A stretch of 64,000 nucleotides of DNA, from positions 62,001 to 126,000 of the forward strand of contig JALVFE010000025.1 of assembly GCA_027030245.1 (NCBI GenBank), read 5' to 3'. This stretch comes from Melioribacteraceae bacterium. Lineage in GTDB: Bacteria; Bacteroidota; Ignavibacteria; Ignavibacteriales; Melioribacteraceae. This document shows positions 10,006 to 31,344 of this stretch, in pieces. The translations under genes were made by a program, and so were the position numbers. The notes beneath the pieces are model-generated. The model did no database searches and was not told the DNA's origin. It saw only the letters and a list, made by a program, of their open reading frames with translations. Numbering within the stretch: the stretch's first letter is position 1; every line of letters begins with the position of its first letter.

Positions 10006-11868
10006 TTATTCGGATAAGAGAGGAAACGTTAAAATAACATCTGTGCCTTTTTTGAGTTGACTTTCGATTTTCAAAGTTCCATTGAGATACGATGTAAGTT
10101 TATTTGCAATGGTTAATCCTAAACCGGCGCCTTCGTATTTTCGTCTGTAGGATTCGTCTTCCACTTGCTGGAAAGGCTCAAGAATCTTATCCAAATCCTC
10201 GCTTTTAATACCAATACCGGTATCGCTAACTATTATTTTCGCATTGTTATTTTCTTTTAACGTTTGTAATATAACTTTGCCATGCGGAACATTGTACTTA
10301 ATTGCGTTGTCTACCAAAACATCCAATATTTTTCTGAACTTTTCTTCGTCGATTTTTACAATTAATCTTTCTGCGGCAAGATTTGTTTCGATTGTTATAT
10401 CGGAATTTTCCAACTTGTTTTTGTAATCCAAGAATGTTTCGGTCACGAGCGGATTCAAATCCGTTTTTATCATATCGAAATCTTGATCGCCCGACTCGAG
10501 CAACGAAACTTCCACTATGTTATCCACCAAATGCAGCAACCGGTTTACACCTTCTTTCATATACCGTATCATTTCCAACGAAGAATCTATACGGTTCTTT
10601 TCCAAATCATCTTCGAGAAGTTCTGAATATCCTACAATCGCATTTAGCGGTGTTCTTACTTCGTGAGACATGTTAGCGAGAAAAACGGATTTTAGTTTGT
10701 TAAGTCTGTTTTCTTTTTCGAAAGCTTCTTTTAATTTTTTTTGGATAAGTAATTGCTCGGTAATATCGTTTAAAATTACAATGAATACACGTTCTTTATG
10801 GAAAGAATCGTAAATGAATGTAATTTTACCTTCGTAATTTCTTTCTTTGTATTCGTAAGCAAATTTTATGGAAAGTTCACCCGAACTTTCCAACTTAATT
10901 ATATTTGTTTCAACAGCTTCAAAAAATCCTTCCGGTAAATAACGTTTAATCTTTTTATCCGTTACGGCATTTTTCTCCAAACCGAATAATTTTTCGAAAA
11001 CTATGTTAATGTTTTCAAAATAGAGTTCGTCATCCGTCTTACGCACTATTAAAAGCGGATCGAAGATGTTATTGATAATCGATTTTTGTTTTTCTTCGGA
11101 TTGTTTTATGTACCGGGTTTTAAGAACATAATGCGTAATATCGTTAGCCACAACAATAAAGCCGCCGTTTTCCCCTTTTGCCTTTACAGGATTTAGTTGA
11201 AGTTCTTTAAACCACAACTGATTTTTTTCATTTAAATCCGTAATTATTTTCGACCATTTTTTATGAACCGAAAGATGATTTTTCAGTTCCTCCAAGTCGG
11301 AAGAGGAAAGAAAATCAGAGATTATGTCGGGCAAATAAGAATTGTATATTTGCTCTATTCTTTTTCCGAAAAACCGCTCGAACGATTTGGAAGCATAATT
11401 AATAATTCCGTTTGCGTCAGTAATTAAAACGGAAATATTGCCGTACTCAATGGCTTGACCGAGATTATCGATTTTCTCTTCGATTTTAATTTTTGATTGC
11501 GGAGGAGAGACGGTCATAAAAAAATATTCGGTACCGGTTAATGTAAAGCGGTTAAGTTCAACGAAGAAAGGTTCGCTTTTATTTTCCGTTTCGATATAAA
11601 TATCGGAATTGAATTGCGAATATCCTGAATTCTTGAAATTATTAAAAATTTCCGCGAACCCGGGTTCACTTTTCAGTTCCAGAACGGAATTGCCATCAGC
11701 AAGATTAAAATAACTTTGAAAATTTAAGTTTGAGTGAATAATCAAGGCATTGTCATCAATCAAAGCAAACGGTTTCGCATCCGGAATATCTTTAAATTTA
11801 TTTTTATGAAAACCGTTTCCGTTCACCCCATCCGGTGGGAAATTATCAGTCCTTAAAATTTCATCCAT
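10006..11868 (-). CDS. PAS-domain sensor histidine kinase
   Basis: A soluble protein of 620 residues without membrane helices. Three PAS-like segments (about 35-125, 138-250 and 262-375) lead into a dimerisation domain with the H-box 'FLANMSHEVRTPLNA' (His402) and an intact ATP-binding domain (N-box Asn521 in V-D-N-A-I, D-T-G-I-G-I at 549-554, then G-A-G-L-G-L). It is therefore a complete cytosolic kinase sensing an internal signal. It overlaps the preceding unknown gene by 8 bases and is the last gene of the long flagellar run. The two receiver proteins just upstream are natural phosphotransfer partners by position. Confidence 0.92.
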   Translation of the reverse strand: MDEILRTDNFPPDGVNGNGFHKNKFKDIPDAKPFALIDDNALIIHSNLNFQSYFNLADGNSVLELKSEPGFAEIFNNFKNSGYSQFNSDIYIETENKSEPFFVELNRFTLTGTEYFFMTVSPPQSKIKIEEKIDNLGQAIEYGNISVLITDANGIINYASKSFERFFGKRIEQIYNSYLPDIISDFLSSSDLEELKNHLSVHKKWSKIITDLNEKNQLWFKELQLNPVKAKGENGGFIVVANDITHYVLKTRYIKQSEEKQKSIINNIFDPLLIVRKTDDELYFENINIVFEKLFGLEKNAVTDKKIKRYLPEGFFEAVETNIIKLESSGELSIKFAYEYKERNYEGKITFIYDSFHKERVFIVILNDITEQLLIQKKLKEAFEKENRLNKLKSVFLANMSHEVRTPLNAIVGYSELLEDDLEKNRIDSSLEMIRYMKEGVNRLLHLVDNIVEVSLLESGDQDFDMIKTDLNPLVTETFLDYKNKLENSDITIETNLAAERLIVKIDEEKFRKILDVLVDNAIKYNVPHGKVILQTLKENNNAKIIVSDTGIGIKSEDLDKILEPFQQVEDESYRRKYEGAGLGLTIANKLTSYLNGTLKIESQLKKGTDVILTFPLLSE

Positions 11869-12573: not shown

Positions 12574-13230
12574 TCAGTCGATGTTCAGCATCTTATTGCC
12601 GAGTGCGTAGTCTTTCATTTCGGGTGATTGGAGGTTTTTGAGGGCATCGACAAATTTTTGTATTCTTTTAATCGATTCTTCGATTATATAAAAATCTTCG
12701 TCGAATCTTTTTCCGTTTTCGGCCAACTCGCTTTTCAAATCTTCCAAAGTTACAACGAGGCTGCTCAGCGGATTATTAATTTTATGACCGATTGTTGTGG
12801 CGAGTTCTACTATTGCTTTACTGTGCTCTATTTTTTTAAGTTCATTTTGAAGATTGTGAATTCTAATTCCGGAACGTATGCGTGCTAACAGTTCTTGGTT
12901 CTCAACGGGTTTAACGAGGAAATCATCGGCGCCTACATCCAAGCCGGTTACTCTGTCTTTTAACGAAGAACGGGCGGTAAGCAAAATGAAATAAATTGTT
13001 TTATATTCCTCGGTGCTTTTAACCGCATTACACAATTGCAAACCGTCCATTACAGGCATCGTCCAATCGGCGATTATTACTTTAGGTTTGAATTCTTTCA
13101 GAGCTTCTAAAGCTTCTTCGCCGTTTTCTACAGCTTTAACATTGTAGTCGTTTTTAGTTAGCAACCGTTCGAAAATAAAACGCGTATCGTATTCGTCTTC
13201 TACCAATAATATTTTATCTTCTTCGTTCAA
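12574..13230 (-). CDS. Receiver domain fused to an orphan histidine-kinase dimerisation helix pair (REC-DHp)
   Basis: A protein of 218 residues. An N-terminal receiver domain (1-122) has the acidic pair E11/D12, phospho-acceptor Asp55 in A-D-W-T-M-P, Thr85 and Lys107 in V-K-P. A coiled linker follows, then a dimerisation/phosphotransfer segment (about 135-205) with the H-box core 'IGHKINNPLSSL' and His149. The protein ends there, with no ATPase domain. It could act as a phosphotransfer relay or be phosphorylated by another kinase. The start is TTG, overlapping the upstream stop as TTGA. Confidence 0.82.
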   Translation of the reverse strand: MNEEDKILLVEDEYDTRFIFERLLTKNDYNVKAVENGEEALEALKEFKPKVIIADWTMPVMDGLQLCNAVKSTEEYKTIYFILLTARSSLKDRVTGLDVGADDFLVKPVENQELLARIRSGIRIHNLQNELKKIEHSKAIVELATTIGHKINNPLSSLVVTLEDLKSELAENGKRFDEDFYIIEESIKRIQKFVDALKNLQSPEMKDYALGNKMLNID

Positions 13231-13622
13231 TTCAGTTTATGTTTATTGATTTTTTGCAAAAACGTATTTAAATCGGTTATCGGTTTAGTAATATAATCAA
13301 CTGCAAAACCATTTTCTAAAAAATAATTAATCTCGCTGTTTTTTTTATAAGCGGAAACCAAAATAATAGGGATATGAGAAAATTTGGAATTTTGTTTTAT
13401 TTTTTTTGTTAAGTCCATACCGCTTATGTTTTTGCCTTCTATCGTAGTATTTTTAAGATTAATGTCCAATAAAATTAAACTTATTTCTTCATTTTCAATA
13501 AGGGAAAATATTTCCTCGGCATCGTCCGATTGAAGAATTGGAATGTTCATTTTTCCGAAGAGATGGGAATAAAATTTTTTTGTAAAGGGATCGTCTTCCA
13601 CCAAAAGTAAATAGCCAGACAT
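13227..13622 (-). CDS. Single-domain response regulator
   Basis: A receiver-only protein of 131 residues from the ATG at 13622, one base after the motB stop codon. A TTG at 13643 would add seven residues and is less likely. It has the acidic triad (E9, D10, D11), phospho-acceptor Asp53 in L-L-D-I, a Ser at the beta-4 end and Lys in T-K-P. No output domain is present, so it probably acts by protein contact or as a phosphate relay. It is coupled to the following REC-DHp gene through a TTGA overlap and belongs to the stator/regulator operon. Confidence 0.85.
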   Translation of the reverse strand: MSGYLLLVEDDPFTKKFYSHLFGKMNIPILQSDDAEEIFSLIENEEISLILLDINLKNTTIEGKNISGMDLTKKIKQNSKFSHIPIILVSAYKKNSEINYFLENGFAVDYITKPITDLNTFLQKINKHKLN

Positions 13623-13623
13623 C

Positions 13624-14397
13624 TTATTCCGAATATTTAACAATTATACTGATTCTGCGGTTGGAAGCATCGAAAGGATTTTTAGGATTTCTCAAACGTT
13701 TATCTGCATAACCACGTATTTCGTCAATCTGGGATTCTTTCACCCCGTTAGCCATTAAAACCCGGCGTGCGGCATTTGCCCTGTCTGCACTTAGTTCGAA
13801 GTTTGTATAGCCCATTCCGTTTCCCGGATAAGGTCTGGCGTCCGTGTGCCCTTCTATAACAATTTTGTTATTAACTTTTTTTAACCGTTTTGCGATAAGC
13901 GCTAATATCTTTTTAATTTCGGGTTTCATTTTGGCTGTTCCCACTTGAAAAAATTCACCTTTATCCGATTCGGCCAATTCTATCCTCAGACCTTCATCAA
14001 CAACTTCTACATCAATAAGTCCCTCAAAATCCTCAAACCCGTTTCTATCCAATTCTTCCTTAAGGGCTTTCCCCATCTGGGTAAGTCTTTCCTTTTCCAA
14101 TTCCTTTTTTTGAGCTTCCGTAAGCAGAGAGGGGGTGGCTTTACTATTTCTTCCCGCACCCTTGAAAACGCTTGGCCCGTTACCTGAACCGAAGCCGCTC
14201 GGATCGTTAAAATAACCGGCAATGTTATTTTTTACGTCTTCGTTTTGTGCAAGTATCCAAAGTACAATAAACAAAGCCATCATTGCGGTTACGAAATCGG
14301 AATAAGCAACTTTCCACGCTCCGCCGTGATGACCGTGTTTTCCTTTTTTGCCTTTCTTAATTATTATCGGCGCATCATTGTGTTCGTTTTCACCCAT
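13624..14397 (-). CDS. motB: Flagellar motor stator protein MotB (first set)
   Basis: A protein of 257 residues. A basic, His-rich cytoplasmic tail precedes one membrane helix with the ion-binding Asp34 in A-Y-S-D-F-V-T-A-M-M. A plug and linker region is followed by an OmpA-like peptidoglycan-binding domain (about 140-255, with 'IVIEGHTDARPYPG' and 'LSADRANAARRVLMANGV'). It anchors the MotA ring to the wall and conducts the driving ion. It starts 3 bases after the motA stop. The helix sequence resembles the proton-type E. coli MotB, but ion choice cannot be settled by eye. Confidence 0.95.
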   Translation of the reverse strand: MGENEHNDAPIIIKKGKKGKHGHHGGAWKVAYSDFVTAMMALFIVLWILAQNEDVKNNIAGYFNDPSGFGSGNGPSVFKGAGRNSKATPSLLTEAQKKELEKERLTQMGKALKEELDRNGFEDFEGLIDVEVVDEGLRIELAESDKGEFFQVGTAKMKPEIKKILALIAKRLKKVNNKIVIEGHTDARPYPGNGMGYTNFELSADRANAARRVLMANGVKESQIDEIRGYADKRLRNPKNPFDASNRRISIIVKYSE

Positions 14398-25997: not shown

Positions 25998-27140
25998 TTA
26001 CGAATAATTCACTACTGATTTATAATTATCAAATATCTTTCTCATATTCTTTTTTTTAAATGATTTAAATCTTAAGAATGATTTCAAATGCATATCCGCA
26101 TTTATCTTTTCATTAAAAGTTTCCGTAATAAATTTACCTTCTAACGGATCGCCGACAGAATGCAATTCGCCGTAAATTATGTTCTCCGTCAAGTACCCTA
26201 TTAATTTATTTTCTTTATTATCAGTGGTAATAAAAAGATTATATACTTGCGTATCTTTTTCCGCTTCATACTTTACGTAGTAGAACTTGTAACCTCTTCC
26301 ATTGCTTAATACAATAAAATCTTTATAAATTCCGGTAAGGGCGAAATAGCTTTTTTGAAGAAGATATTTTTCAAGATATTTCGCGATACTCCCGGTTAGT
26401 TGTTCTTCACCAATAGATTTTCTTTGTTGTTCATCTTCCAAGAGTTCGAGAATTTCAATTAAATTATTGTCCTTGTTTTTAAGCTTACCGGAAAGCTCTT
26501 CAGCGTTGTTGCAAACAAGATACGACCAAAGTGCTTGCGTAAAACGTGAAAACCCGTTTTCAATTTTATATTCGTTTAGCAATTCGAATATTTTTTCGCT
26601 AATGCTTTCAAAACTTTGATCAAATATTTTAATGAATCTGTCTAACACCTTTGCAGTATTGAGTTTATTACTGTTCCATATCAAATGAGTCAGTACTTTT
26701 AATTCATCTAATGAGTAATTTGAATTATTCATTCTTAAAAATGTTATCAATTCCTCTACAAAACTTTTTACCAACGGTTTTTGTAATACCAGTAACAGGT
26801 TTACCGTTTCAGTGGTTAACGGATTTTTCTTTATTCCCAGAATCTTCAATAATTTATCAATCTGCCGTTCATTGTTTTCTTTCTTTATGTCCAACGATAC
26901 CGTTAAAGGATTATTCTTTATAATTTTACCTGCAACAATCTCACCGATTTCCAAATCAACCGGTAATTCGGTTACGTATAATTTTCCGTCTATTAAAACT
27001 TTTTCTCCTTTAGGGAATTTTTCTATTACTTCAATTTTAACCGGCGTATATCGAATAGTTGTTAACCCAACCGTTTTATCCTTTACCAAGCTTAATCTTG
27101 AAAACGGAATATAATTTCTATTTAAATATTTCTTTTCCAT
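25998..27140 (-). CDS. Possible FliK-like flagellar protein
   Basis: A protein of 380 residues with no signal or membrane segment. The N-terminal beta module (about 25-80, 'GKLYVTELPVDLEIGEIVAG') followed by a helical region that begins 'IDKLLKILGIKKNPLTTETV' (about 90-200) resembles the layout of FliK-like hook-length proteins of Gram-positive and related flagella. The C-terminal part (about 260-360, 'YFALTGIYKDFIVLSNGRGY') is beta-rich, as a FliK export-switch domain would be. A clear FliK sits at 43995, so this would be a second, divergent member. It shares 1 base with the upstream gene. Confidence 0.5.
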   Translation of the reverse strand: MEKKYLNRNYIPFSRLSLVKDKTVGLTTIRYTPVKIEVIEKFPKGEKVLIDGKLYVTELPVDLEIGEIVAGKIIKNNPLTVSLDIKKENNERQIDKLLKILGIKKNPLTTETVNLLLVLQKPLVKSFVEELITFLRMNNSNYSLDELKVLTHLIWNSNKLNTAKVLDRFIKIFDQSFESISEKIFELLNEYKIENGFSRFTQALWSYLVCNNAEELSGKLKNKDNNLIEILELLEDEQQRKSIGEEQLTGSIAKYLEKYLLQKSYFALTGIYKDFIVLSNGRGYKFYYVKYEAEKDTQVYNLFITTDNKENKLIGYLTENIIYGELHSVGDPLEGKFITETFNEKINADMHLKSFLRFKSFKKKNMRKIFDNYKSVVNYS

Positions 27141-27652
27141 TATCTGCTTGCAATTAATTTTAACTTAGCCGCCAATAACAATTCACCTTTTGATATTGAA
27201 AGTTCTTTAGCCATTTTTGATAAATTTTCACTTTTGATATTCAATCCTATTTTGCCCAAGCCTATATTTTTTCTCAGAGTTTCAATTTCTTCGTTGTTTT
27301 TTCTAATAATTTTTTCGAGTCTTATTTTTTCAATGTTTGCTTTAATTTCCTCCGGGGAAAGCAAGGTTGCTTTAGGTTTTCTTTCCTTCCATTTTCTTAC
27401 CAGCATTACAAGTAATGCCGTTTCGAGCATAACAAAAATGATAGCAAACATTGTTCGCGTTTTATTCTCAATTTTTGGTTTAACAAGCGATGTCGCTTTT
27501 GACGTTTCAATAAAAGTCGATTTCCTTTCATTCTTTTGAAGTTTACTATCAATAATTTCTTTAAGATCAATCCCCGCTTGCGATTGAGCTTTTATTTTAC
27601 CTGCAAATCCCAATAGCATAACTGCCATAACAAATATTGCAAATGTTCTCAT
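27140..27652 (-). CDS. Membrane-anchored coiled-coil protein, uncharacterised
   Basis: A protein of 170 residues: a signal-like N-terminus (about 1-22, ending K-A-Q), a short extracytoplasmic stretch, a second hydrophobic helix (about 66-84) and a charged cytoplasmic coil ('IEKIRLEKIIRKNNEEIETL'). The C-terminal 'LSKMAKELSISKGELLLAAK' looks like a small helix-turn-helix-type motif seen at the end of some flagellar or DUF2802-like proteins. No firm family. Start and stop abut both neighbours, so it is part of the same operon. Confidence 0.65.
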   Translation of the reverse strand: MRTFAIFVMAVMLLGFAGKIKAQSQAGIDLKEIIDSKLQKNERKSTFIETSKATSLVKPKIENKTRTMFAIIFVMLETALLVMLVRKWKERKPKATLLSPEEIKANIEKIRLEKIIRKNNEEIETLRKNIGLGKIGLNIKSENLSKMAKELSISKGELLLAAKLKLIASR

Positions 27653-28951
27653 TTATCTTATTCTCCTTTTTAAGGGAAATGTAAGAACAATAGCCGAACC
27701 TTTATTTTCAAACGATTCGATTTTGTAATTTCCTTCGTGTCTTTTCATCAGGTTTGCAATAATGTTGACATTAATTTGATACTCACTCAGTTTTTGAGAA
27801 TTGCCGGTATCCTTTTTCAGTTCGTTAGTTGAAATTATTCTAAGAATAACCTCATTATTTTTGTATCTCGTTTGAATTATTACCCCGCCTCTACTTTGCA
27901 AATCCGTATTAATCAAACCGAAAATATTATTCAGCAGTTGGAAAATGTAATTCGGGTGACTTAATACCGACGGTATTCTGTTTTCCAAATCCAGCACGCC
28001 TTCAAGGTTTAACCCTTCAAGAGTAGATTTCACAAGGGAAAAATATTCTTTGATAATTTTATTTATGCTACACGGTTGAATTTTAATTTCGTCGTGGTTC
28101 ACTTCCGAAAATTTTACCAACCGGTCGATAGCTTTACTAATCTTATTAATTTGACGTTTAATTTTTTTCGTTTCTTTTTGATATTCCGGTTTAACATTCA
28201 ACAAATCCAACTGCGAGATAATAACCTGCATAGGATTACGAATTTCTTCCAAAATTCCGTTCGTTAATTCGCCGATTGCCGCAAGTCTGAAATCATTAGA
28301 AAGTTTAGCTTGATAAGTTTGCAGTTCTTTGTAAGTATCTTTTATTTTTTCTTTAAGATGGGCTTTCCCGATTTTTGCCATAGCCGAATTGAGCAAAATC
28401 CGAATACTCTTCTTTTCCAAGTCACCCAATTTTTCCTTGGCAAGCGGAGTTAAAATAGCAAGAACGCCTTCGTTTTTGCCGTCGTCTTTAATCGGGAGAA
28501 TCAAATAATTCAATTTAGGTCCTTGGGAATTATAACTTTCAAGATCGGGTACAACTATTTCCTTATCGGAATCAAACACCAAATTAAGCACACCCTCTTT
28601 ATAAAAGCCGTTAATTGTACTTACTATTTTCGAATTATCAAGCTTGTCTATCGGTTTAAGATTCAAATATTCATTATCAAACAACAATAATGCGGTATCT
28701 TTCAGCGGCAATATTTTTTTCAAATAGATTCCGAGTTTAGCCGCCAGGATATTAGGATCACCAAGCGTTTTAGTATCCTCTTCAAATTCAATAACTGTTT
28801 GAATAATGAAAGAATACTTTTCAAGCAAAAAAGCATTGACTTTATTTGCTTCCCGCTTTCTTTCCGCGGCTCTTTCCTTAAACTCGGTTAGATTAACCAA
28901 CGATTCATAAAACGGAATTGCTTCGATATTTGTTTCTTTGTGAAGTATCAT
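27653..28951 (-). CDS. Degenerate histidine kinase (pseudokinase) with GAF-like domain
   Basis: A protein of 432 residues with no membrane helix. A GAF-like domain spans about 45-195. The dimerisation segment (about 220-285) aligns with NtrB/FlrB-type kinases, but the phospho-accepting His is replaced by Glu235 in G-I-L-E-E-I-R-N-P; the codon is GAA at 28247-28249. The ATPase-like region (about 310-430) lacks a standard N-box Asn and the D-x-G-x-G motif, though the end 'ENKGSAIVLTFPLK' still fits the fold. It probably acts as a non-catalytic sensor or scaffold. It lies beside two HDOD genes and fliA. Confidence 0.85.
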   Translation of the reverse strand: MILHKETNIEAIPFYESLVNLTEFKERAAERKREANKVNAFLLEKYSFIIQTVIEFEEDTKTLGDPNILAAKLGIYLKKILPLKDTALLLFDNEYLNLKPIDKLDNSKIVSTINGFYKEGVLNLVFDSDKEIVVPDLESYNSQGPKLNYLILPIKDDGKNEGVLAILTPLAKEKLGDLEKKSIRILLNSAMAKIGKAHLKEKIKDTYKELQTYQAKLSNDFRLAAIGELTNGILEEIRNPMQVIISQLDLLNVKPEYQKETKKIKRQINKISKAIDRLVKFSEVNHDEIKIQPCSINKIIKEYFSLVKSTLEGLNLEGVLDLENRIPSVLSHPNYIFQLLNNIFGLINTDLQSRGGVIIQTRYKNNEVILRIISTNELKKDTGNSQKLSEYQINVNIIANLMKRHEGNYKIESFENKGSAIVLTFPLKRRIR

Positions 28952-28953
28952 AA

Positions 28954-29823
28954 TTAAAAGACACTCGAATTTAGTTCTTCGATAAACAAATTCCTGTAAC
29001 TTTCAATAAAGCCTTCCAAATCGCTTTCATTAATTTTAAGCGTTTCGAAAATGCTTTCGTCGAGTTTAAAACGATCATCCAAATAGAAATTACCTAGCTC
29101 GAGATATTGTGTCATATAATCCGCTAAATGAACAACTGCCGTCAGCACATCTGCGTTGGTACTTAAATTTGGTTTGTGATGGAATTCGATTGTTTCACAA
29201 AGATGAACCGGTAATTTCCATTTGTTCGAAAGGAACTTTCCGATTTCGGCATGAGTCATTCCCAAATATTCCAATTCTATTTCTTCCAATGATTTTTCCG
29301 AGTTAACAAATTCATTTGCTATCGATTCGTAAGCGGAATTGAAATATTTGTGCATTACGGGAATACCCAAATCGTGTAATAGTCCGGCTACAAAAGCTTC
29401 GCTTCCGATACGGTAACCCAAATCTTCGGCAATTCTTTTTGATGCCGAGCCTGTAATAATCGAATGTTTCCAGAAGTTGCTTTGATCAAAATATTTATCC
29501 GATTTATTTTTGAAAGATTCCACCATTGTCAATGCAACTACAATATTTTTGATATCCTGATATCCGATAATCAAAATTGCAAAATCGATAGTAGAAACCT
29601 TTCTCGGTAAACCGTATAAAGGAGAATTGGCAATCGATAATATTTTGGTTGACATACCTTGATCTTTTCCGATAATTCTTCCAAGCTCTGCCGCATTAGT
29701 AGAAGGATCATCCAATAATTTAGAAACTTCCATAACCGCAGACGACATTGCGGGAAGATTATAAATGTTAGAAAGCATTGATTCCGATTGCTTTCTTCTT
29801 TCTTGAATAAGTTGTTCTTCCAT
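28954..29823 (-). CDS. HDOD domain protein (copy 1)
   Basis: A protein of 289 residues made of one HDOD domain (about 15-215): 'VSKLLDDPSTNAAELGRIIG', 'KDQGMSTKILSIANSPLYGL' and 'AFVAGLLHDLGIPVMHKYFN'. HDOD proteins resemble HD phosphohydrolases without full catalysis and take part in signalling. The His and Asp of L-L-H-D-L-G remain, but other metal ligands of true HD hydrolases are not obvious. It is a clear paralogue of the gene at 29844. The start lies 20 bases after that gene. Confidence 0.9.
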   Translation of the reverse strand: MEEQLIQERRKQSESMLSNIYNLPAMSSAVMEVSKLLDDPSTNAAELGRIIGKDQGMSTKILSIANSPLYGLPRKVSTIDFAILIIGYQDIKNIVVALTMVESFKNKSDKYFDQSNFWKHSIITGSASKRIAEDLGYRIGSEAFVAGLLHDLGIPVMHKYFNSAYESIANEFVNSEKSLEEIELEYLGMTHAEIGKFLSNKWKLPVHLCETIEFHHKPNLSTNADVLTAVVHLADYMTQYLELGNFYLDDRFKLDESIFETLKINESDLEGFIESYRNLFIEELNSSVF

Positions 29824-29843: not shown

Positions 29844-30725
29844 TTAGTAATTAATAATTTCTTGCTGATATTCAAACAATTCTTTGTAGCTTTCAATAAA
29901 ACGTTCGAGATATTCTTCGTCGCCTAATTTCAAAATATCGATTACGCTTTTGTCCAATTCCAAATTCCTATCCCATAAATAATTTCCTATTCCCAATTTA
30001 ACGGTCATGTAATCCGCCAAATGAATTAATGCCGTAAGCTCTTTGTGTTGCTCGGCTTCGGAAGGCGTATGATGAAACGCTACCGATTCCGATAACGAAG
30101 CCGGCAAGTTCCATCTGTCCAATAAATACATACCTATTTCTTGATGAGTTAAACCGAGTATTTCCCTTTCCGCTTCAAGAAATGTTAAACCTTTATTTTC
30201 AACGGCATTTATTATCTCTTTAAATTCTTTGTTGAAATATTTATAAATCACCGGTATTCCCAAATCATGCAACAATCCCGCAGTAAAAGCTTCGCCGCTT
30301 ATTTGATAACCGAGATCGTCGGCTATACGTTTTGCCGCAGTAGCGGTAATTACCGAATGCATCCAGTATTTTTTATGAACAAACTTCCCATCGCCCATTT
30401 TTTTTAAGGTCTCCATCATCGATAGGGCGATTACGATATTTTTAATTTGATTAAACCCGAGAATAACAACCGCAAAATCAATAGTTGAAACCCTTTTGGG
30501 AATTCCATACAAAGGAGAATTTGCAACCGTTAATATTTTTGTTACCAAACCTTGATCCTGACTAATCATTTTTCCCAATTGAGCTGCGCTTGTATTCGGA
30601 TCGTCAATCATCTTGGATACCTCAACGATAATGAACGGGAGAGAAGGCAGATTATAAACTGACGAAAGAATTCTGATTGCTCTTTTCTTTTTTTCTTCAA
30701 GATTCCCTGACTTTGCTTCCTTCAT
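29844..30725 (-). CDS. HDOD domain protein (copy 2)
   Basis: A protein of 293 residues with the same HDOD layout as its neighbour: 'VSKMIDDPNTSAAQLGKMIS', 'QDQGLVTKILTVANSPLYGI' and 'AFTAGLLHDLGIPVIYKYFN'. By eye about half of the residues match copy 1 over the whole length, so the pair is a tandem duplication that has diverged. The ATG lies 29 bases inside the end of fliA with AAGG six bases upstream, suggesting coupling to the sigma factor. The role is unknown; flagellar HDOD proteins have been tied to regulation in some bacteria. Confidence 0.9.
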   Translation of the reverse strand: MKEAKSGNLEEKKKRAIRILSSVYNLPSLPFIIVEVSKMIDDPNTSAAQLGKMISQDQGLVTKILTVANSPLYGIPKRVSTIDFAVVILGFNQIKNIVIALSMMETLKKMGDGKFVHKKYWMHSVITATAAKRIADDLGYQISGEAFTAGLLHDLGIPVIYKYFNKEFKEIINAVENKGLTFLEAEREILGLTHQEIGMYLLDRWNLPASLSESVAFHHTPSEAEQHKELTALIHLADYMTVKLGIGNYLWDRNLELDKSVIDILKLGDEEYLERFIESYKELFEYQQEIINY

Positions 30726-31344
30726 AATCCTTTTCTAATTTTTTTCTTAGCTCTTTCATTATTTTCGAATGAATCTGCGAAACGCGGGAGACCGTTATGT
30801 TAAGCACATCTGCAATTTCCTTGTAATTCATTTCTTCGTAGTAATACAAACTGATAATCAACCTGTCTCTCTCGTTTAATTCTTTAATCGCTTCTTTTAA
30901 AAATTCTTTTTGCTCTTCTTTGTCGAATTGTTCGTCCGGTTTTTTTGCATCGGAAGGGATTACTTCCGAAAGCGTATAACCGTCTTCGCCATCGTAATGA
31001 TGATGCAAAGAAACGTTCCGGTAAACAATTCTGTCCTCATCGTTCAGGTTAGCCCTCGGCTTTATTTGCAGCTTTCTCAGTTCGTCGATAATTTTTCCAC
31101 GGATCCTCTGAATTGCGTAAGTTTCGAACTTTGTTCCGTAATCCGGATCGAAACGGTCGATAGCTTCGCTTAAACCTTCAACACCGAATTGGAAATAATC
31201 CTTTTCGTCAATAACATTAAGGTTAATGAACTTCGAGTGATGGATTACGTAATGAACAAGATTAGTATAATTAAACATTATCTGTTTTTTAATCTGCGGG
31301 GAGGGCTTCTTTTTGTATTGAGCCCAAAGTGTAGCATTATTCAT
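30697..31344 (-). CDS. fliA: Flagellar sigma factor FliA (sigma-28)
   Basis: A protein of 215 residues. Region 2 has 'DYFQFGVEGLSEAIDRFDPD' and 'FETYAIQRIRGKIIDELRKL', diagnostic of the FliA/WhiG group. Region 4 has 'LNERDRLIISLYYYEEMNYK' with the helix-turn-helix 'EIADVLNITVSRVSQIHSKI'. It directs transcription of late flagellar and chemotaxis genes; a matching promoter lies at 61393-61419. No anti-sigma factor FlgM is seen in the window. It follows a small membrane protein (8-base overlap) and flhG, the usual neighbourhood. Confidence 0.95.
   Translation of the reverse strand: MNNATLWAQYKKKPSPQIKKQIMFNYTNLVHYVIHHSKFINLNVIDEKDYFQFGVEGLSEAIDRFDPDYGTKFETYAIQRIRGKIIDELRKLQIKPRANLNDEDRIVYRNVSLHHHYDGEDGYTLSEVIPSDAKKPDEQFDKEEQKEFLKEAIKELNERDRLIISLYYYEEMNYKEIADVLNITVSRVSQIHSKIMKELRKKLEKDYEGSKVRES

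Follow-up and report, generated by a model that had tools for sequence, protein, structure and literature searches.

Sequence comparison gives good support to the view that a working flagellar histidine kinase has been converted into a pseudokinase across the order Ignavibacteriales. The gene in question belongs to a Melioribacteraceae bacterium and lies in a 64,000-nucleotide stretch of its DNA, called the window here. Catalysis has been lost yet the gene is kept by selection, which suggests that its product probably acts by touching partners rather than by passing on phosphate. Our overall reading, which we consider probable, is that a kinase of the flagellar system gave rise to a GAF-bearing pseudokinase that works through protein contact, as DivL does. 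The gene, its domains and its immediate neighbours are laid out in the window as follows.

27653-28951, minus strand: pseudokinase gene, 432 aa, with an N-terminal helix, a GAF-like domain, a long helix, a DHp domain and a lid-less CA fold
28424-28771, minus strand: GAF-like domain, residues about 61-176, placed by the model, the 4mcw profile match and GAF matches in orthologues
28199-28321, minus strand: DHp helix 1, residues 211-251, the region of lowest entropy
28247-28249, minus strand: Glu235 codon GAA at the position of the phospho-accepting His, by alignment with canonical kinases
27656-28084, minus strand: degenerate CA domain, residues 290-432, with Asn346, DxGxG and GxGLG gone and the lid shortened; predicted fold kept
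28954-29823, minus strand: HDOD protein, directly upstream of the pseudokinase gene (Pfam)
29844-30725, minus strand: second HDOD protein (Pfam)
30697-31344, minus strand: fliA (sigma-28), 215 aa (Pfam and NCBIfam)
27140-27652, minus strand: 170-aa protein of unassigned function in which a hydrophobic stretch was noted by eye, encoded after the pseudokinase in the apparent operon

The reading frame begins with ATG and contains no internal stop, and the start of the 170-aa gene adjoins its stop codon. A preliminary description, made from the letters of the DNA, had proposed an otherwise intact gene in a fliA/HDOD setting with Glu in place of the phospho-accepting His, and the frame, the Pfam and NCBIfam assignments of the neighbours and the alignment bear this out: in three canonical kinases that this genome also encodes (L002, L003, L005), the residue aligned to Glu235 is the His. 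The ATP boxes are eroded as described there, and somewhat further. In the N-box, Asn342 is kept and the second Asn (346) is replaced by Leu, DxGxG is missing, and so is GxGLG. The stretch from N342 to G407 measures 65 residues (median of 67 pseudokinases) versus 76 in 10 intact orthologues, indicating that part of the ATP lid, about 11 residues, is missing. Of the hallmarks of an active HisKA kinase the protein thus retains the HisKA fold and lacks the His, the second N-box Asn, DxGxG and GxGLG; of those of a histidine pseudokinase it shows a kinase fold, absent catalytic residues and purifying selection. The conserved helix 1 surface and the gene order hint, indirectly, that it may also bind a receiver domain according to its phosphorylation state, as a DivL-like pseudokinase would. 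HisKA is matched by Pfam at residues 227-283 (28.7 bits, cut-off 26.9), and HATPase_c has no Pfam match to the protein even at E <= 1. The best NCBIfam matches, AtoS and ZraS, both fall far under their cut-offs.

The GAF domain proposed in the same description could also be upheld. The Pfam match in the window protein is below threshold (E 0.15), and it is backed by a family profile (query residues 52-213) that matches the N-terminal domain of PDB 4mcw at E 2e-7, a domain we take to be a GAF. Above the Pfam cut-off, GAF is found in two intact orthologues and in the degenerate proteins that occupy the same gene position (the slot) in two genomes outside the order, G335 and G529. A profile match to the haemagglutinin chains 1ybi/4lo0 (E 3e-5) was taken as chance.

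The loss is shared throughout the order. Among 58 relatives, 42 carry an orthologue (E <= 2.5e-52), the next matches being other kinases (E >= 3.8e-15), and those records of the family that bear names have labels such as Melioribacteraceae, Ignavibacteriales and Stygiobacter electus. The form is degenerate in 42/42, with His235 absent from 41 and present in L036. Further orthologues from a wider draw of 294 genomes of the class were pooled with the earlier loci, yielding 74 distinct orthologues inside the window's order and 44 outside; the sources overlap partly, so that a number of the 74 nearly duplicate one another. Excluded were five sequences identical to earlier rows, and outside the set stand two orthologues cut at contig ends (G419, G392) as well as wider-draw matches with E above 1e-32, which are probably other kinases. 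L200 ends at a contig edge and was hence scored without GxGLG.

N346, DxGxG and GxGLG are absent from all 74 order orthologues, and the His from 72. The two that have it (L036 and L212, both of genus g9) represent a regained state in which the ATP motifs are still absent. Outside the order, by comparison, the His is kept in 43 of the 44 orthologues, N346 in 42, DxGxG in 43 and GxGLG in 41, with His and N346 retained together in 42; all three ATP motifs are present in each of the 10 intact orthologues first examined. As the loss of the ATP motifs is common to 74/74, it is not due to chance, and a sequencing error or a strain-specific loss is ruled out. Close homologues with the His, which the preliminary description had named as the finding that would speak for such an error or loss, are confined to genus g9. 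Of the two features whose conservation in related genomes it had proposed to check, the erosion of the ATP boxes is shared completely and Glu235 itself partly: position 235 is Glu in 56 of the 74, Asp in 5, Asn in 4, Gln in 3, His in 2, and Ser, Thr, Lys and Gly in one each. Glu is therefore not needed everywhere at this site, which is acidic (Glu or Asp) in 61/74.

In line with a stable, selected pseudokinase gene in the flagellar cluster, as opposed to a decaying one, dN/dS over the whole gene is 0.047-0.080 in five pseudokinase pairs (dS 0.93-1.98), and 0.003-0.058 for the DHp part of the same pairs. Further pairs with dS over 2 or undefined were left out; between the window gene and that of the closest relative (L001/L007) dS was saturated, giving no whole-gene ratio. 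Entropy averages 1.19 over DHp helix 1, compared with 1.95 for CA, 2.22 for helix 2 and 2.36-2.66 for the remaining regions. Four residues, K216, G227, Q242 and F281, are identical in all 74 order orthologues. K216 occurs in 0/44 outside the order, where Gln is nearly always found; Gln242 was invariant in the 10 intact rows first read and differs in 3 of the 44. Position 246 is Ser in 72 order orthologues and Thr in 2, and outside the order Ser in a single row (L206, from G335) and otherwise Gly, Leu, Met, Ala or Ile. Counted from H260, this position would correspond to A271 in 4jau, the site altered when the HK853 interface was rewired. An AlphaFold2 model of the pseudokinase built with 47 sequences has moderate confidence and an unreliable domain arrangement (pLDDT 78, pTM 0.47). 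The CA fold is kept in the model, with Z 17.0 against the CA domain of ThkA, and comparison with HK853 complexes gives Z of about 16-17.

The position of the gene links the pseudokinase to active kinases. The window and its kin share the order flhA-flhF-flhG-(91 aa)-fliA-HDOD-HDOD-pseudokinase-(170 aa)-(380 aa)-flgF, and in 45 of the 46 named loci the gene immediately before the pseudokinase encodes an HDOD protein; the exception is L084, where fliA takes this place. At 8 of 11 loci from outside the order (L123-L130), a kinase orthologue sits between HDOD and flgF; the remaining three (L131-L133, family f6) begin near the slot or sit in a different setting. Two such slot kinases were scanned and showed HATPase_c at E 7e-27 and 4e-28 plus GAF domains. 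The nearest kin of the pseudokinase found are thus intact kinases, several of them in the same slot. In an 80-row tree all 67 pseudokinases, including those of the order families f1, f2 and f3, form a single clade with support 100 on a long stem of 1.55 changes per column. The ratio of net to within-group distance is 2.00 for the slot gene, 1.36 for HDOD and 0.80 for flgG; the value of 1.08 for fliA is unreliable, since distances within the sister clade are very large (5.79). Judged by motif, the slot is ancestral and its ancestral occupant an active kinase.

Two genomes outside the order hold variant slot proteins. G335, which belongs to family f54 and is represented by a single assembly (160 contigs, 98% complete), is the nearest outgroup found. 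Its slot protein, L206, keeps the His and the GAF domain and has lost all three ATP motifs, with neither a HATPase_c nor a HisKA Pfam match at E <= 0.01. G335 groups with the order in the FliA tree (100/98.7, starred, 28 rows) and, unstarred, in the HDOD tree (80/82) and the slot-protein tree (91/93), in which the L206 branch is very long. Because G335 keeps the His without any ATP motif, it suggests, as a single genome and if its placement is right, that loss of ATP binding came first and loss of the His second. In G529 (L207; L222 2168-3553) the His is replaced by Asn and N346 by Phe, and DNGNG and a HATPase_c match are retained. This single genome may represent a separate loss; its slot kinase is linked to fliA and HDOD.

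The distribution of the pseudokinase follows that of the flagellum. FlhA is present in 44 of the 58 relatives; the pseudokinase occurs in 42 of these and in 0/14 without FlhA. Of the two exceptions, G021 is 68% complete, with a contig end 499 bases beyond its fliA, and G043 lacks any match to the window FliA at E <= 1e-5. Candidate partners lie elsewhere in the window, beside motAB and 14 kb from the pseudokinase gene, near an intact kinase.

12574-13230, minus strand: receiver-DHp protein, candidate partner, with His149 and Asp55 and no CA domain (Pfam)
13227-13643, minus strand: single receiver protein, candidate partner (Pfam); its G335 counterpart directly follows the slot gene
10006-11868, minus strand: intact PAS-HisKA-HATPase kinase near the receiver-DHp gene (Pfam); a relative follows the receiver-DHp gene in L084

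The receiver-DHp protein, which has a phosphorelay-type layout, was found (E <= 3.1e-68) in exactly the 42 pseudokinase-bearing relatives of the 58, with 51-94% identity in the 41 others carrying it; its His and Asp are each present in 30/30 rows examined, of 42. The corresponding G335 locus reads fliA-HDOD-slot gene-receiver-(receiver-DHp), where Pfam bears out the final two genes. L084 reads short kinase-NtrC-(weak flhF match)-fliA-pseudokinase-(receiver-DHp)-PAS kinase, with the first two Pfam-confirmed. The exclusive co-occurrence, perfect in the 58 relatives, is weakened by homologues elsewhere in the class: at E <= 1e-40 and 38-40% identity in 4 of 11 non-order genomes, and at 35-44% identity in 19 of 32 further ones, G335 alone reaching 51%. 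Apart from G335, wherever the slot was read in these genomes its kinase is intact. The receiver-DHp protein therefore predates the conversion, so its co-occurrence with the pseudokinase is not specific and may merely follow the flagellum. HDOD adjacency is likewise shared with intact kinases and so does not single out the HDOD proteins as partners. The receiver/receiver-DHp pair would be at least as good a partner candidate as the HDOD proteins.

An adjacent cognate NtrC regulator was considered and rejected. Sigma-54 activators were mapped in the genome itself and in 11 non-order genomes, and none lies beside the slot. The window itself contains no sigma-54 activator match; the closest one, at C25:135792, is about 45 kb off and has its own kinase, and in the non-order genomes the nearest on the same contig is about 18 kb from the slot (G108, G290). 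About 44-50 kb from the pseudokinase, L171 9339-14978 holds genes for flagellin, an NtrC regulator and a short intact kinase, along with a weak FlgM-like match and fliS- and fliD-like frames recognised by eye; the short kinase and the NtrC regulator are probably the FlrB/FlrC pair of this genome. Replacement of FlgM by the pseudokinase was also rejected, as FlgM-like matches exist, mostly under the cut-off (over it in 2/20 genomes; E <= 0.1 in 13/20).

How might the protein work? The ancestor would have been a GAF-containing HisKA/HATPase kinase between HDOD and flgF, as found by motif in the sister orders, whose ATP-binding machinery and phospho-accepting His were lost on the way to the window's order. 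The remaining parts, a lid-less CA fold, the GAF domain and a DHp helix whose surface is very conserved, are all under purifying selection. The GAF domain or the N-terminal helix may sense an input and the long helix carry the signal down, whereupon the DHp surface would bind a receiver domain or a regulator of the flagellar hierarchy and alter its activity or phosphorylation, in the manner of DivL with DivK~P or of NifL with NifA. Gene order points to the receiver-DHp protein (12574-13230) and the receiver (13227-13643) as the likeliest partners; next would come the FlrC-like NtrC regulator encoded near flagellin, with its short kinase. A more specific version, which we offer tentatively and hold to be unlikely as a whole, is that the kinase turned stepwise, losing the ATP site first and the His later, into a receiver reader. 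Here, the acidic residue at the dead phosphoacceptor site in 61/74 would face the receiver active site and may thereby favour an unphosphorylated, metal-loaded receiver, the opposite of DivL, so that the protein gates a receiver-to-DHp phosphorelay for flagellar control across the order. If this were true, the intact kinases of the sister orders and the His-keeping G335 would make a datable natural experiment in the birth of a pseudokinase.

Other explanations have to be weighed against action by contact. The pseudokinase might steer phosphotransfer within a heterodimer, its DHp domain dimerising with the receiver-DHp protein or another kinase. The two proteins have complementary losses, the one lacking the His and an ATP site and the other having a His and no CA domain, their genes are close together in G335 and L084, and the predicted fold can also be superposed on RetS from its co-complex with GacS, 7n0e (Z 16.0); the occurrence of receiver-DHp homologues also where the slot kinase is intact argues against this idea, which we see as conceivable but unlikely. 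Alternatively, the phosphatase half of the kinase alone may survive, with the residue four positions after the lost His (Ser, Thr or Asn) dephosphorylating a receiver. DHp helix 1 is indeed the most conserved region, and position 239 is Ser in 39, Asn in 10 and Thr in 10 of the 74 order orthologues (59 altogether). However, Asn is found there in 43/44 outside the order, so that most pseudokinases have replaced it by Ser, and Glu, Asp or Lys stands there in 15 of the 74. Moreover, the His of HK853 itself joins in phosphatase action, the activity of H260A being diminished (PMC5727384), and DivL is without phosphatase activity on DivK~P (PMC4211667). Survival of the phosphatase activity alone is thus an improbable explanation.

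A role as scaffold or anti-sigma-like factor, acting on FliA or the HDOD proteins, would agree with the gene directly following HDOD or, in L084, fliA, and with G043, which has FlhA and lacks both a FliA match and the pseudokinase. The same adjacency in intact kinases means that it does not mark a new function, and the FlgM-like matches also count against such a role, so we regard it as quite unlikely. Last, the gene could be a non-functional remnant held by operon structure, or a sequencing artefact. Its missing ATP motifs and a stem faster than that of flgG (2.00 versus 0.80) could be read in this way, but losses common to all 74, the low dN/dS and the residues identical throughout the order make this very improbable. 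Action of the pseudokinase by protein contact thus remains our preferred reading.

Histidine pseudokinases are already known as a kind, DivL being the most prominent in the literature searched. DivL belongs to the circuit for swarmer and stalked cell fate in Caulobacter and has, like the window protein, a HisKA/CA fold without the His (Tyr550 in DivL); it has no kinase or phosphatase activity, yet binds DivK~P via its ordinary docking face (PMC4211667). The modelled CA domain of the pseudokinase superposes on DivL 4q20 with Z 16.8 and 2.8 A over 134 residues. Unlike DivL, the pseudokinase has Glu at the His site, no ATP motifs and a shortened lid, carries a GAF instead of a PAS domain, and is encoded in a flagellar structural operon beside fliA.

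Likeness to other systems is partial. FlrB/FleS and NtrB-type flagellar kinases resemble the pseudokinase in flagellar setting, and its CA model matches NtrB 1r62 (Z 16.8, 1.8 A over 122 residues). In contrast to these kinases, the pseudokinase has no catalytic residues and no NtrC-type gene adjacent, and the genome's short intact kinase and NtrC pair lies separately, near flagellin. NifL consists of a sensor and a kinase-like region and holds NifA by contact; it senses via PAS, and its target NifA is an AAA+ activator. The NifL-NifA structure 9qq6 and the pseudokinase model superpose poorly overall, with an rmsd of 22.8. ChpT, Spo0B and other DHp phosphotransferases combine DHp with a degenerate CA domain and keep the His, as does the slot protein of G335, whereas 72/74 order members have no His to carry phosphate.

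We found no report of this flagellar-slot pseudokinase in the limited collection of literature searched. As far as that collection shows, an order-wide pseudokinase in a flagellar operon with an active counterpart in the sister-order slot is new, and it would add a component to Ignavibacteriales flagellar regulation of which the same literature yielded no description. With an active counterpart in the same slot and an apparent intermediate, the abandonment of catalysis by a kinase becomes directly testable. Flagellar motility has been described for Melioribacter roseus (PMC3534657), so that a cultured test organism is at hand for the group; two records under this name, L062 and L092, encode the pseudokinase, with Glu and Asn at the His position.

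The neighbourhood offers several further observations. A scan for promoters and terminators returned no more sites than shuffled sequences. The window FliA (215 aa) scores 164 bits, under the FliA_WhiG cut-off of 189.6, with Pfam regions 2 and 4 found and region 3 not; the eight sister-order FliA frames in L123-L130 measure about 243-255 aa. A receiver-HDOD fusion as partner was absent from five sister HDOD frames scanned. Three of these five, all beside fliA, carry a C-terminal sigma-70 region 4 (L123:7004-8074, L128:5814-6899 and L128:6893-7936; Pfam E 4e-8 to 7e-7), and by eye the same combination appears in L129:6988-8151 and L125:10854-11540. Pfam finds no such region in the two HDOD proteins of the window. 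On the 3' side of the pseudokinase gene, 25998-27652 (minus strand) encodes the unnamed 170-aa and 380-aa proteins, the former with positional counterparts in sister orders that share a similar GKGEL-type end (by eye). Beside motB, where the window has the receiver and receiver-DHp genes, some sister-order genomes carry a receiver-HD protein (L136:3113-4384, Response_reg and HD_5 by Pfam; L137:3038-4228 and L140:2678-3862 by eye).
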